From assembly GCA_020974905.1 (NCBI GenBank), contig CP087563.1, positions 6,944,001-7,008,000 on the forward strand: DNA of 64,000 nt. Direction: 5' to 3'. The stretch comes from Planctomycetes bacterium syqfu (GTDB taxonomy: Bacteria; Planctomycetota; Phycisphaerae; Phycisphaerales; Phycisphaeraceae). The position numbers were made by a program, and so were the translations under genes. The notes beneath the pieces were generated by a model. The model saw nothing but the letters and a program-made list of their open reading frames with translations. It did not search any database and was not told the origin of the DNA. This document shows positions 4,841 through 7,583 of this stretch, one piece after another. The first letter of the stretch is position 1. Each line of letters opens with the position of its first letter.

Positions 4841-5317
4841 GGCGTCTTGCGTTGCGGACGGTAAGCCGAATTCTGTTGGCACCGAAGTGCTGCGACCATT
4901 TCTCTAGGCCTGCAATTACTCACAGGCTCAAGCAACCTACCCGTCCCCATCAGCCGGAATCAACTGTGATGCACAAGGCATCGGAGACTGCTTGGTCTTG
5001 CACGCGACGGGGTTTACCTTGCCGTGACTGTCACCAGCCACGCGGTGCGCTCTTACCGCACCATTTCAACCTTACCTGTGCCTGTTAAGGCCATCGGCGG
5101 TATCTTTTCTGTGGCACTGTCCCTCCCCCGCCCCCGGAAGTTGAAAACAAACGCACGGCATGGATGATCCTTGGGGGAAGTATCATGCCGGTTGCTTGCC
5201 TTGAGCTTCCGGGGGCAGGGGGGTGGGCGTTACCCACCGTCGTATCCTACCGTGTTCGGACTTTCCTCTGAATGCACAAGTCACCCAGCGGCCGCGACAT
5301 CCGCAACGCAAGACGCC
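4841..5317 (-). ncRNA. rnpB: RNase P RNA (bacterial type A)
   Basis: Catalytic RNA of RNase P, which matures tRNA 5' ends. On the minus strand the conserved core AGAGGAAAGTCCG lies near 5260 and the matching 3' core ACAGAATTCGGCTTAC near 4870; both are diagnostic of P4 and flanking regions. The ends form a long P1 helix: GGCGTCTTGCGTTGCGGA at the 5' end (5317 down to about 5300) pairs with TCCGCAACGCAAGACGCC at the 3' end (4841-4858). Length about 477 nt, somewhat long for type A (usually 350-450), with an extended GC-rich arm around 5110-5230. Ends are set from P1 pairing. Confidence 0.95.
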
Positions 5318-5344: not shown

Positions 5345-5369
5345 AAATTGCTTATAACTCTGTTATTCA

Positions 5370-5486
5370 GGCGAGCCGCGTCGTGTCGATGCGGAATTGA
5401 CCGTAGGTCAACTCTCAATATATCAACATACATGCGCAAATATGATTTTGAGCTTCGCTCAATCCCGCGTCGACACGCGGCTCGCT
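5370..5486. repeat. Imperfect inverted repeat upstream of rnpB
   Basis: The arms (about 5370-5400 and 5459-5486) share GCGAGCCGCG...GTCGA...GC with only a few mismatches and small gaps, separated by AT-rich DNA. It could be a small mobile-element remnant or a hairpin between the divergent rnpB and leu leader promoters. No gene is visible here. Confidence 0.55.
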
Positions 5487-5510
5487 TAAGACGTATTGAG
5501 AAAATTTTAA

Positions 5511-5539
5511 TTGACAACCCCCAGATCACCGATTAGGAT
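5511..5539 (+). promoter_or_regulatory. Promoter of the leu leader-leuA transcript
   Basis: Consensus -35 TTGACA at 5511-5516, a 17-bp spacer and -10 TAGGAT at 5534-5539. A start near 5546 leaves only a few nt before the leader peptide ATG at 5552, as expected for an attenuator. Confidence 0.75.
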
Positions 5540-5551
5540 TCGGACTTACCA

Positions 5552-5635
5552 ATGAAACAGCAAACCACCTATTCCAACATCCACAGTGACAGCAAGGACC
5601 TCCTAGGCTTGCTACTCCTGTCGGTGCGCGGATAG
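5552..5635 (+). CDS. leuL: Leucine leader peptide (attenuator)
   Basis: A 27-codon ORF: ATG at 5552, TAG at 5633-5635. Codons 17-23 read CTC CTA GGC TTG CTA CTC CTG, so six of seven specify leucine using four different Leu codons, including CTA twice. It follows a consensus promoter by a few nt and precedes an alternative hairpin (5645-5676) and an intrinsic terminator (5691-5730) before leuA. This is the architecture of ribosome-mediated transcription attenuation: stalling at Leu codons when charged tRNA-Leu is scarce should favour read-through. The peptide itself is not expected to have a function. The symbol is given by analogy with proteobacterial leuL. Confidence 0.82.
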   Translation: MKQQTTYSNIHSDSKDLLGLLLLSVRG

Positions 5636-5644
5636 GCCATTGCT

Positions 5645-5676
5645 GGTTCCCCGGAATAAATTCAACCGGGACAACC
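5645..5676 (+). promoter_or_regulatory. Pause/antiterminator-type hairpin of the leu attenuator
   Basis: GGTT-C-CCCGG pairs with CCGGG-AC-AACC around an A/T-rich loop. It sits between the leader stop and the terminator, where ribosome position would decide which structures form. The exact alternative pairing with the terminator arm was not resolved by eye. Confidence 0.5.
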
Positions 5677-5690
5677 TGATCAAATGCAAC

Positions 5691-5730
5691 GCCCTGTCTG
5701 CCCACCTCATGCAGACGGGGCTTTTTTTTT
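5691..5730 (+). terminator. Intrinsic terminator of the leu attenuator
   Basis: An 11-bp stem, GCCCTGTCTGC with GCAGACGGGGC (one G-U pair) and a 9-nt loop, followed by nine T. It ends about 75 nt before the leuA start and lies between leader ORF and structural gene, so it is regulatory rather than the end of an upstream gene. Confidence 0.88.
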
Positions 5731-5805
5731 GATTTTTATGAGGTAGTAACTAACATTGCCGATCCGAAACTGGAAAACGACCGGCATAACCAAGGAGACA
5801 TTCCA

Positions 5806-7374
5806 ATGTCCGACACCCAGATGATCCGAATCTTCGACACAACGTTACGCGATGGTGAGCAATCCCCAGGCGCAACGCTGAACCTACAGGAGAAGATCGA
5901 GATCGCCCGCAAGCTCGAAGCCATGGGTGTCGATGTCATCGAAGCCGGCTTCCCCATCACTTCGCAGGGCGACTTTGATTCCGTCTCCGCCATCAGCCAG
6001 GAAATCCAGAATTCCATCGTCTGCGGACTCTCGCGTTGCGTCCCCCGTGACGTGGAGCGTGCAGGTGAAGCGATCAAGAAAGCCAAGCATGGCCGCGTTC
6101 ACGTGTTCTGTGCAACCAGCAAGATTCATCGTGAAAACAAGCTCAACAAAGCCATCGACGAGATCATCAAAATCTCCGTCGAATCCGTCAAGCAGGCCCG
6201 CCAGTACACCGACGACGTGGAATTTTCTCCCGAAGACGGTTCGCGTACCGAGTTGGATGTGTTGGTCGAAATCACACAGGCCGTCGTCGAAGCTGGTGCA
6301 ACAACCGTCAACATTCCCGATACTGTGGGCTATGCGACCCCCGAAGAGTATGGCTACATCTTCAAGTACGTCCGCGAGAAATTGCCGATGCTTGATGAGA
6401 AGGGCATCTATCTTTCCTCGCATTGTCATAACGACCTGGGCTTAGCCGTCGCCAACTCGTTGGCAGCGGTGCAGAACGGTTGTCGTCAGATCGAGTGCAC
6501 CATCAACGGCATCGGTGAACGTGCGGGTAATGCGTCACTGGAAGAAGTGGTCATGACCTTGCGAACCCGTGCCGACTATTACAAGGGCTTTACCACGCGG
6601 ATCGATCCCAGGAAGATTTACCCGCTCTCGCGCATGGTCTCCAACTTCACCGGCCTGACCGTGCAGCGGAATAAAGCCATCGTCGGCCAGAATGCCTTTG
6701 CACACGAATCAGGCATTCATCAGGACGGCATGCTCAAGGACCGCAGCACCTACGAAATCATGGACCCGCGTGAAGTCGGCATCCCCGAAAGCAAGTTGGT
6801 CCTGGGTAAACACTCCGGCCGACATGCCTTCCGTGATCGTTTGAATCAATTGGGCTATCAACCCGATGACGATCTGCTTCAACGCAGCTTCGTTGCTTTC
6901 AAGGCGTTGGCGGACAAAAAGAAGGACGTCTACGACGAAGACATCGAAGCCATCCTTGATGAGCAGATCGGCAAGACCCGCGTGCTCTGGGAACTTGATC
7001 GTTTCCAGGTCACCAGCTCCAGCAACGACACCGCCATGGCGATGGTCAGCCTCAAGGACACCGCTGGGGTTCACCGCATGGAAGCTGCCACCGGTGACGG
7101 CCCGATTGACGCGATTTACTCGGCGATCCAATTGGCAACCGGTGTGACGGTCACTCTTGAAGACTATACCACCCGTGGCATCACCGGCGGCAAAGACGCG
7201 CAGGGTGAAGTCTCGGTGAAGATCCGTCACCATGACCGTTATGTCCGTGGTCGTGGCCTGAGTACCGATGTCATCGAAGCCGCTGCCAAGGCGTATCTCG
7301 CTGCAATCAACCGCATCAAGGTCGCCTCCGATGCCGTGGTCGATGAGTCGGAAGACAAAGTCGCCCAACCGTAA
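5806..7374 (+). CDS. leuA: 2-isopropylmalate synthase LeuA
   Basis: Condenses acetyl-CoA with 2-ketoisovalerate, the committed step of leucine synthesis. 522 residues, the usual length for the form with a C-terminal feedback domain. The TIM barrel starts IRIFDTTLRDGEQSPGA (metal-binding Asp and catalytic Arg), with LSSHCHNDLGLAVANSL (metal-binding His pair) and the GIGERAGN motif. The FAHESGIHQDG motif follows, then the LeuA dimerisation/leucine-binding domain (about 380-510). The start has a strong AAGGAG site about 10 nt upstream. Expression appears controlled by the leader/terminator at 5552-5730. No leuB or leuCD is adjacent. A perfect terminator follows at 7408-7448. Confidence 0.97.
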   Translation: MSDTQMIRIFDTTLRDGEQSPGATLNLQEKIEIARKLEAMGVDVIEAGFPITSQGDFDSVSAISQEIQNSIVCGLSRCVPRDVERAGEAIKKAKHGRVHVFCATSKIHRENKLNKAIDEIIKISVESVKQARQYTDDVEFSPEDGSRTELDVLVEITQAVVEAGATTVNIPDTVGYATPEEYGYIFKYVREKLPMLDEKGIYLSSHCHNDLGLAVANSLAAVQNGCRQIECTINGIGERAGNASLEEVVMTLRTRADYYKGFTTRIDPRKIYPLSRMVSNFTGLTVQRNKAIVGQNAFAHESGIHQDGMLKDRSTYEIMDPREVGIPESKLVLGKHSGRHAFRDRLNQLGYQPDDDLLQRSFVAFKALADKKKDVYDEDIEAILDEQIGKTRVLWELDRFQVTSSSNDTAMAMVSLKDTAGVHRMEAATGDGPIDAIYSAIQLATGVTVTLEDYTTRGITGGKDAQGEVSVKIRHHDRYVRGRGLSTDVIEAAAKAYLAAINRIKVASDAVVDESEDKVAQP

Positions 7375-7407
7375 TCCGTACTGAAAACTTGACTGAATAT
7401 TTTTTAC

Positions 7408-7448
7408 ACCCAAGCGGCCAGATTAATCTGGCCGCTTGGGAGTTTTTT
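7408..7448 (+). terminator. Terminator of leuA
   Basis: A perfect stem CCCAAGCGGCCAGAT / ATCTGGCCGCTTGGG with a minimal loop, followed by AG and six T. Confidence 0.9.
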
Positions 7449-7497: not shown

Positions 7498-7583
7498 CGT
7501 CATTCCCGCGCAGGCGGGAATCCAGTGGCATTCTGTTAACACCTGCAAGTTCCACTGGACTCCCGCCTGCGCGGGAGTGACGG
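7498..7583. repeat. Palindromic REP-like element (family A), intact copy
   Basis: Two outward arms, GTCATTCCCGCGCAGGCGGGAATCCAG (7499-7525) and the matching CTGGACTCCCGCCTGCGCGGGAGTGACGG (7555-7583), each internally palindromic around CGCAGGCG or CCTGCGCGG. A second copy at 23587-23875 is split by an insertion. Confidence 0.85.

Follow-up and report, generated by a model that had tools for sequence, protein, structure and literature searches.

The window analysed here, a stretch of 64,000 nucleotides from the genome of Planctomycetes bacterium syqfu (one contig, 7.38 Mb; nearest named records Phycisphaeraceae MAGs of the phylum Planctomycetota), has on its + strand an ORF for 2-isopropylmalate synthase, leuA (5806-7374). 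Its product scores above the curated cut-offs of two NCBIfam equivalog models for this enzyme, namely NF002086 (749.7 vs. 532 bits) and TIGR00973 (697.6 vs. 598.7 bits). The gene is preceded by a Shine-Dalgarno sequence AAGGAG (5792-5797, + strand, assigned by eye) and followed by an inverted repeat with a T run (7406-7443, + strand), which is probably its terminator. Further downstream lies another inverted repeat (7498-7582), with arms of 31 nt that are 94% complementary and 23 nt apart. The upstream neighbor of leuA is the RNase P RNA, located on the minus strand (4846-5308). There is also a palindromic dispersed repeat (5362-5492) which ends approximately 25 bp 5′ of the leu promoter; counted on both strands, the genome contains 73 matches to it.

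Upstream of leuA lie the parts of a putative attenuator, all on the + strand. As in the original prediction, a consensus sigma-70-like promoter was found, consisting of TTGACA (5511-5516) and TAGGAT (5534-5539) with a spacer of 17 nt and a score of 10/12. It was the only + strand site of this type listed between 5200 and 6200 in a scan with one consensus, with no other promoter-like site found up to 6200 from which transcription might start downstream of 5730. From the position of the -10 element, transcription is predicted to begin at 5544-5548, 4-8 nt 5′ of the leader ATG, making the RNA almost leaderless. The leader ORF (5552-5635), identified by its sequence and its recurrence in relatives, has 27 codons running from the ATG at 5552 to the stop codon TAG at 5633-5635 and encodes the peptide MKQQTTYSNIHSDSKDLLGLLLLSVRG. 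Its control codons (CTC CTA GGC TTG CTA CTC CTG, 5600-5620), distinguished by sequence and codon bias, specify leucine at six of seven positions with CTA used twice, exactly as first described. The stop codon is held within region 2 (GCGGATAGG, 5628-5636), assigned as the 5′ strand of the antiterminator on the basis of duplex energies, covariation and a ribosome-position model. Region 3 (5691-5701) forms the 5′ arm of the terminator, with 5693-5701 pairing with region 2 (fold, duplex and model), while region 4 (5711-5730) comprises the 3′ arm and the T9 tract (sequence, fold and covariation). The terminator arms, GCCCTGTCTGC (5691-5701) and GCAGACGGGGC (5711-5721), followed by nine T (5722-5730), give a hairpin of -21.5 kcal/mol, confirming the intrinsic terminator expected between leader and leuA; it is absent from the terminator scan list as its loop of 9 nt falls outside the 3-8 nt accepted by the scan.

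The alternative hairpin proposed in the original prediction has to be revised. A small hairpin, CCCGG/CCGGG (5650-5670, + strand, from sequence and fold), is present in the interval between regions 2 and 3, but it has no overlap with the terminator, is compatible with it and was rejected as the antiterminator, which is instead formed by 5628-5636 with 5693-5701. The leader RNA as a whole has a fold of -69.2 vs. a shuffle mean of -48.2 (sd 4.33), with none of 200 shuffles as low, and when unconstrained this fold pairs CCUAUUCC of the leader with GGAUAGG. Within the window, a short ORF with leucine at six of seven codons followed by a terminator is found only as the leuA leader. At a threshold of five of seven, two nested extra matches appear at 17.6 kb; these were rejected as a leader, since by eye their DNA was taken to belong to a larger gene, at its 3′ end.

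Among close relatives, a close LeuA was identified in 38 of 61 genomes (its own included), and 36 upstream regions were used, that of the window among them; L018 and the G021 match, both at contig ends, were left out. A short ORF with at least four Leu in seven codons was found by rule in 32 of these 36, including the doubtful leader of L040 with its GTG start and weak terminator, while the leaders of L008, L027, L033, and L034, with fewer or dispersed Leu codons, were chosen by hand. The sample of the class gave LeuA in 82 of 120 genomes at the cut-off used, and 37 of 75 further upstreams (these including one second copy from G091, L196, and with L185 lacking the motif) possess leader and terminator by rule, although two from family f20 and one from f23 rest on doubtful terminators. 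Other leaders of the class, chiefly of family f11, have dispersed Leu codons. Over all 111 upstreams, a leader (Leu at four of seven codons) with a terminator is present in 65, compared to 5 of 2220 dinucleotide shuffles, and its position before leuA is therefore not due to chance; the stricter thresholds of five and six of seven gave 40 and nine cases respectively, with none in the shuffles. A lack of the Leu run and terminator in close relatives, which had been named as evidence against attenuation, was looked for and is not what these genomes present.

A promoter with a score of at least 8/12 ending 5-13 nt before the leader start is found in 35 of the 36 close relatives, vs. 2 of 36 and 3 of 36 for two control distances, and Shine-Dalgarno-like motifs precede just 3 of 36 leaders vs. 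26 of 36 leuA starts. With the promoter so close in 35 of 36, the leader is probably leaderless. This type of start is not evident for all leaders of the class, as in its other families such a promoter was found for 18 of 49 leaders (vs. 2 of 49 at control distance). In beginning almost at the ATG, the predicted RNA resembles rnTrpL, as described in the available part of PMC7298713, and the terminated RNA (approximately 180 nt) or the peptide could additionally act in trans in the manner of rnTrpL/peTrpL of Sinorhizobium; with the first half of the peptide being unlike between genera, such a role is considered improbable. Rare Leu codons are enriched in the leaders, and Leu codon use as a whole differs between leaders and leuA (chi-square 211, a descriptive value only, as the sequences are related). 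CTA accounts for 37 of the 224 Leu codons in the 36 leaders (16.5%) vs. approximately 1.5% in the leuA genes (1301 Leu codons), and CTT for 26.8% vs. 7.5%, which agrees with the suggestion that the choice of Leu codons, CTA included, would tune sensitivity to tRNA-Leu charging.

Pairing between regions 2 and 3 is specific to each upstream. For the 36 upstreams, the duplex has a mean of -21.1 kcal/mol with its own partner vs. -16.9 kcal/mol with swapped partners, and none of 20,000 permutations reached the own value, this being again the case for the 32 left when L005-L007 and L040 were removed. The helix of the window itself is weak (-15.6), its true partner ranking 24th of 36, which counts against the pairing at this locus. 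Region 2 overlaps the leader stop codon in 31 of 36. A search blind to the leader and proceeding from the terminator found terminators in 95 of 111 upstreams, and in 71 of these 95 the best partner of the terminator arm fell at the 3′ end of an ORF carrying three or more Leu in its last 15 codons. For covariation, 51 of the 71 were picked by eye for a single geometry; the 20 not included had a shifted or different geometry, were near duplicates or were the G091 copy. Across these 51 sequences, the 11 pairs of the antiterminator are paired in 86.1% of cells vs. 67.8% when shuffled (0/500 as high), with 105 cells changed on both sides vs. 50.3 (0/500) and 21 further pair types vs. 17.3 (4/500). 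No signal came from counting the pairs that show at least one double change in this set (6 vs. 5.9, with 436 of 500 shuffles reaching 6). Slid partners gave at most 43.6% pairing. The middle pairs of the helix alternate between G-C and C-G (24/22) and between G-C and U-A (21/21), while the three bases of the stop codon, U, A, and G, have as their partners G (46 of the 51 sequences), U (46), and C (49); the stop codons are apparently retained for their role in the RNA switch. The terminator helix is paired in 96.9% of cells (0/500 shuffles). Both outcomes proposed as a check in related leuA upstreams, recurrence of the Leu run with a terminator and covariation, were thus found.

With promoter, leader and terminator recurring before the leuA of relatives and two mutually exclusive helices both covarying, the original reading of the locus as a leucine attenuator is supported, and leuA is very probably controlled by ribosome-mediated transcription attenuation that senses charged tRNA-Leu. 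In the proposed mechanism, RNA polymerase would start near 5546 and a ribosome would initiate on the leader ORF, itself predicted to be almost leaderless. Under a shortage of Leu-tRNA, this ribosome would stall in the Leu run and leave region 2 bare; region 2 would then pair with region 3 ahead of the synthesis of region 4, and the terminator would thereby be blocked and leuA transcribed, giving a response to leucine. This was modeled with ribosome-covered bases blocked to 13 nt ahead of the A site, an assumed start at 5546 and RNA only through region 3. The modeled antiterminator probability for stalls at Leu codons 17, 18, 20, 21, and 22 is 0.96, 0.51, 0.95, 0.97, and 0.80 respectively; it is 0.02 at codon 23, 0.00 at the stop codon and 0.32 without a ribosome. 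The positions of stalling and the folding fit one another in the model, and 32 of 34 leaders have two or more Leu codons at a distance of at least 14 nt upstream of region 2. Once region 4 is present, the terminator has a probability of 1.00 in every modeled state, and the order of synthesis must therefore decide, with the antiterminator expected to take kinetic precedence.

Three features of classical amino acid attenuators are present here, namely a Leu-rich leader ORF, an intrinsic terminator and, as judged by sequence and model, an antiterminator which would exclude the terminator and be governed by ribosome position. A conserved 1:2 hairpin was not found (mean z of -0.55, with 4 of 34 leaders below -2), and a ribosome at the stop codon therefore probably masks region 2 by itself. 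To our knowledge, a 1:2 pause or protector hairpin such as that of trp is not present in every accepted attenuator, and its absence is thus regarded as a difference and not as a reason for exclusion.

In the sample of the phylum, LeuA was present in 33 of 98 genomes and a Leu leader was found by rule in 10 of the 29 upstreams read, with terminators judged by eye; by family, this amounts to 5/5 in f42, 1/5 in f31, 0/5 in f54, 0/3 in f56, and 0/2 in f32. Among the 80 best named loci, a Leu leader followed by a terminator was found in Pirellulales, Planctomycetales, Planctomycetaceae, other Planctomycetota and one Kuenenia record. Six records of these 80 with non-planctomycete names also have a Leu leader (L075, L095, L111, L113, L118, and L119), with a listed terminator behind it only in L111 (Kiritimatiellia). 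For several lineages with LeuA in the class and phylum samples, a leader or terminator was not found, which weighs against the attenuation reading. Classical ribosome-mediated attenuation in Planctomycetota, as read from these sequences, would thus be common in Phycisphaerae and patchy beyond.

In families f18, f20, f23, and f24, many of the leuA leaders end in LLLLRP or LLLLRL and no intrinsic terminator was found for them. Such leaders, likewise those of ilvB, and an actinobacterial leuA leader described without a terminator in the available parts of PMC1262725 and PMC8079986, would accord with a leader acting on leuA through translation (by coupling or a sequestered start) or Rho and not through an intrinsic terminator; for the present locus this is very unlikely, as a strong terminator with a T tract is present in the window and in most close relatives and is held by covariation. 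It is hardly credible that the sole function of the terminator is to end or insulate some unrelated transcript, with the Leu-rich ORF being incidental, for although a lone terminator needs no leader and some relatives have leaders without a terminator, nothing annotated reads into leuA, the upstream RNase P RNA being on the opposite strand, leader and terminator recur far above shuffles, and covariation of regions 2 and 3 has no place in such an arrangement. Separately, inspection by eye of the leuA upstreams of the four families (L175, L177-L184, L186, L187, L190-L192, and L195) showed in many of them a TGCGCC..GGCGCA stem spanning the stop codon and, closer to leuA, a promoter-like TGGATTT..CATAAT.

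The organization that suggests leucine attenuation at leuA is also found with the gene for citramalate synthase, cimA. The LeuA paralog L002 of the same genome (G000:C1:431651-436114) is a citramalate synthase (TIGR00977, 649.6 bits, cut-off 450) with the Ile-rich leader MNQSQTIIIASMIISTPQPR, followed by GCGGUAGGG against CCCUGCUGC and then a terminator, its antiterminator being anchored at the stop codon as in leuA. An Ile leader (at least three Ile in 10 codons) with a terminator was found in 20 of 26 cimA upstreams of relatives (L002, L233-L259, with L250 lacking the motif), this being an observed count without a shuffle control. Their duplexes have -20.8 kcal/mol for own vs. -17.9 kcal/mol for mismatched partners (0/20,000 permutations), and the leader stop codon is TAG in 17 of the 20. 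Upstream of ilvB (L226, L260-L284, with L262 lacking upstream DNA and L285 the motif), 14 of 24 cases show a near-leaderless leader rich in Val, Ile, and Leu whose end is marked by a conserved TGAGCGG motif, and a terminator was listed for one only (L267, -10.2). Of the indirect evidence that translation exerts the control, the strongest is that the control codons appear to change with the product on an RNA frame that remains the same, and leuA and cimA, with one scaffold and swapped control codons, offer a ready-made natural test of attenuator design. On balance, the evidence leans toward a branched-chain attenuation regulon in Planctomycetota, above all in Phycisphaerae, built on one scaffold of near-leaderless peptides with UAG as antiterminator strand and with codons re-specified for each gene (Leu for leuA, Ile for cimA, Val/Ile/Leu for ilvB), which would be old enough to be common to families outside the class. 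Neither the leuC-like nor the trpE-like genes of this genome showed a matching leader, the leuC matches being below the family cut-off; hisG was located as well. There is a weak Leu cluster before a second chorismate-binding gene (L231).

The enterobacterial leu operon attenuator (leuL) is represented in Rfam by RF00512. With leuL, the window shares a Leu leader peptide, rare CUA control codons and a mutually exclusive terminator and antiterminator before leuA. The planctomycete case is peculiar, and the window set apart from leuL, in that the stop codon lies within the antiterminator, a conserved 1:2 hairpin is apparently lacking and the start is probably leaderless. At an E-value of 0.5, 16 planctomycete loci gave no match to any Rfam leader family, one sub-threshold match lying over the leader of L136 (rli40, 28.6 bits, gathering 100), and only RNase P was found in the window at the gathering threshold. 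No T-box match was found in the window or in the 16 loci, and identity of the leader with a T-box or other known RNA family was rejected. Three CUA control codons are discussed for the leu attenuator of Salmonella in the available part of PMC1183508.

Attenuation is a known kind of control; the planctomycete case was not found earlier, in that no report of planctomycete leuA attenuation was found in the open-licence literature and a term search of the uORF4u paper gave no mention of planctomycete or leuA. Classical ribosome-mediated attenuation would thereby be placed in a phylum for which that literature offered no description, and coupled transcription and leader translation would be implied there. 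It would also give annotators a simple rule for leader peptides and for leuA/cimA control in planctomycete genomes.

According to the available text of PMC5794164, the ilv-leu attenuator of Staphylococcus aureus is similar in that an Ile/Leu leader peptide is encoded and the terminator follows the stop codon at a distance of 52 nt (55 nt in the window). It differs in its ribosome binding site, in its position before ilvD and in its antiterminator, which pairs with the poly-U instead of the terminator 5′ arm. The ilvBNC leader of Corynebacterium glutamicum, as given in the available text of PMC11857589, likewise encodes a leader peptide whose control codons are those for Leu and Val, has an overlapping antiterminator and terminator, and differs in its three-hairpin model with an anti-antiterminator, in its gene and in its phylum. 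In Actinobacteria, the LEU element has a Leu leader before leuA for which a pseudoknot is proposed and no Rho-independent terminator is described in the portion of PMC1262725 consulted, and a leaderless LeuL1 precedes leuA in Streptomyces (PMC8079986, in its available part). The window resembles both in that leuA is preceded by a short, probably leaderless ORF containing a Leu run, and differs from the LEU element, as far as these portions describe it, in its terminator with a covarying antiterminator. Judged by the presence of this terminator, it does not belong to the LEU element, in which the Leu run and the leuA Shine-Dalgarno sequence make up the base stem of the pseudoknot. The GLLLLSxRG motif of the actinobacterial leader, in the same partial sources, also resembles that of the window, where the peptide GLLLLSVRG (5606-5632) is similar to GLLLLSCRG in the leuA leader of Streptomyces lividans.
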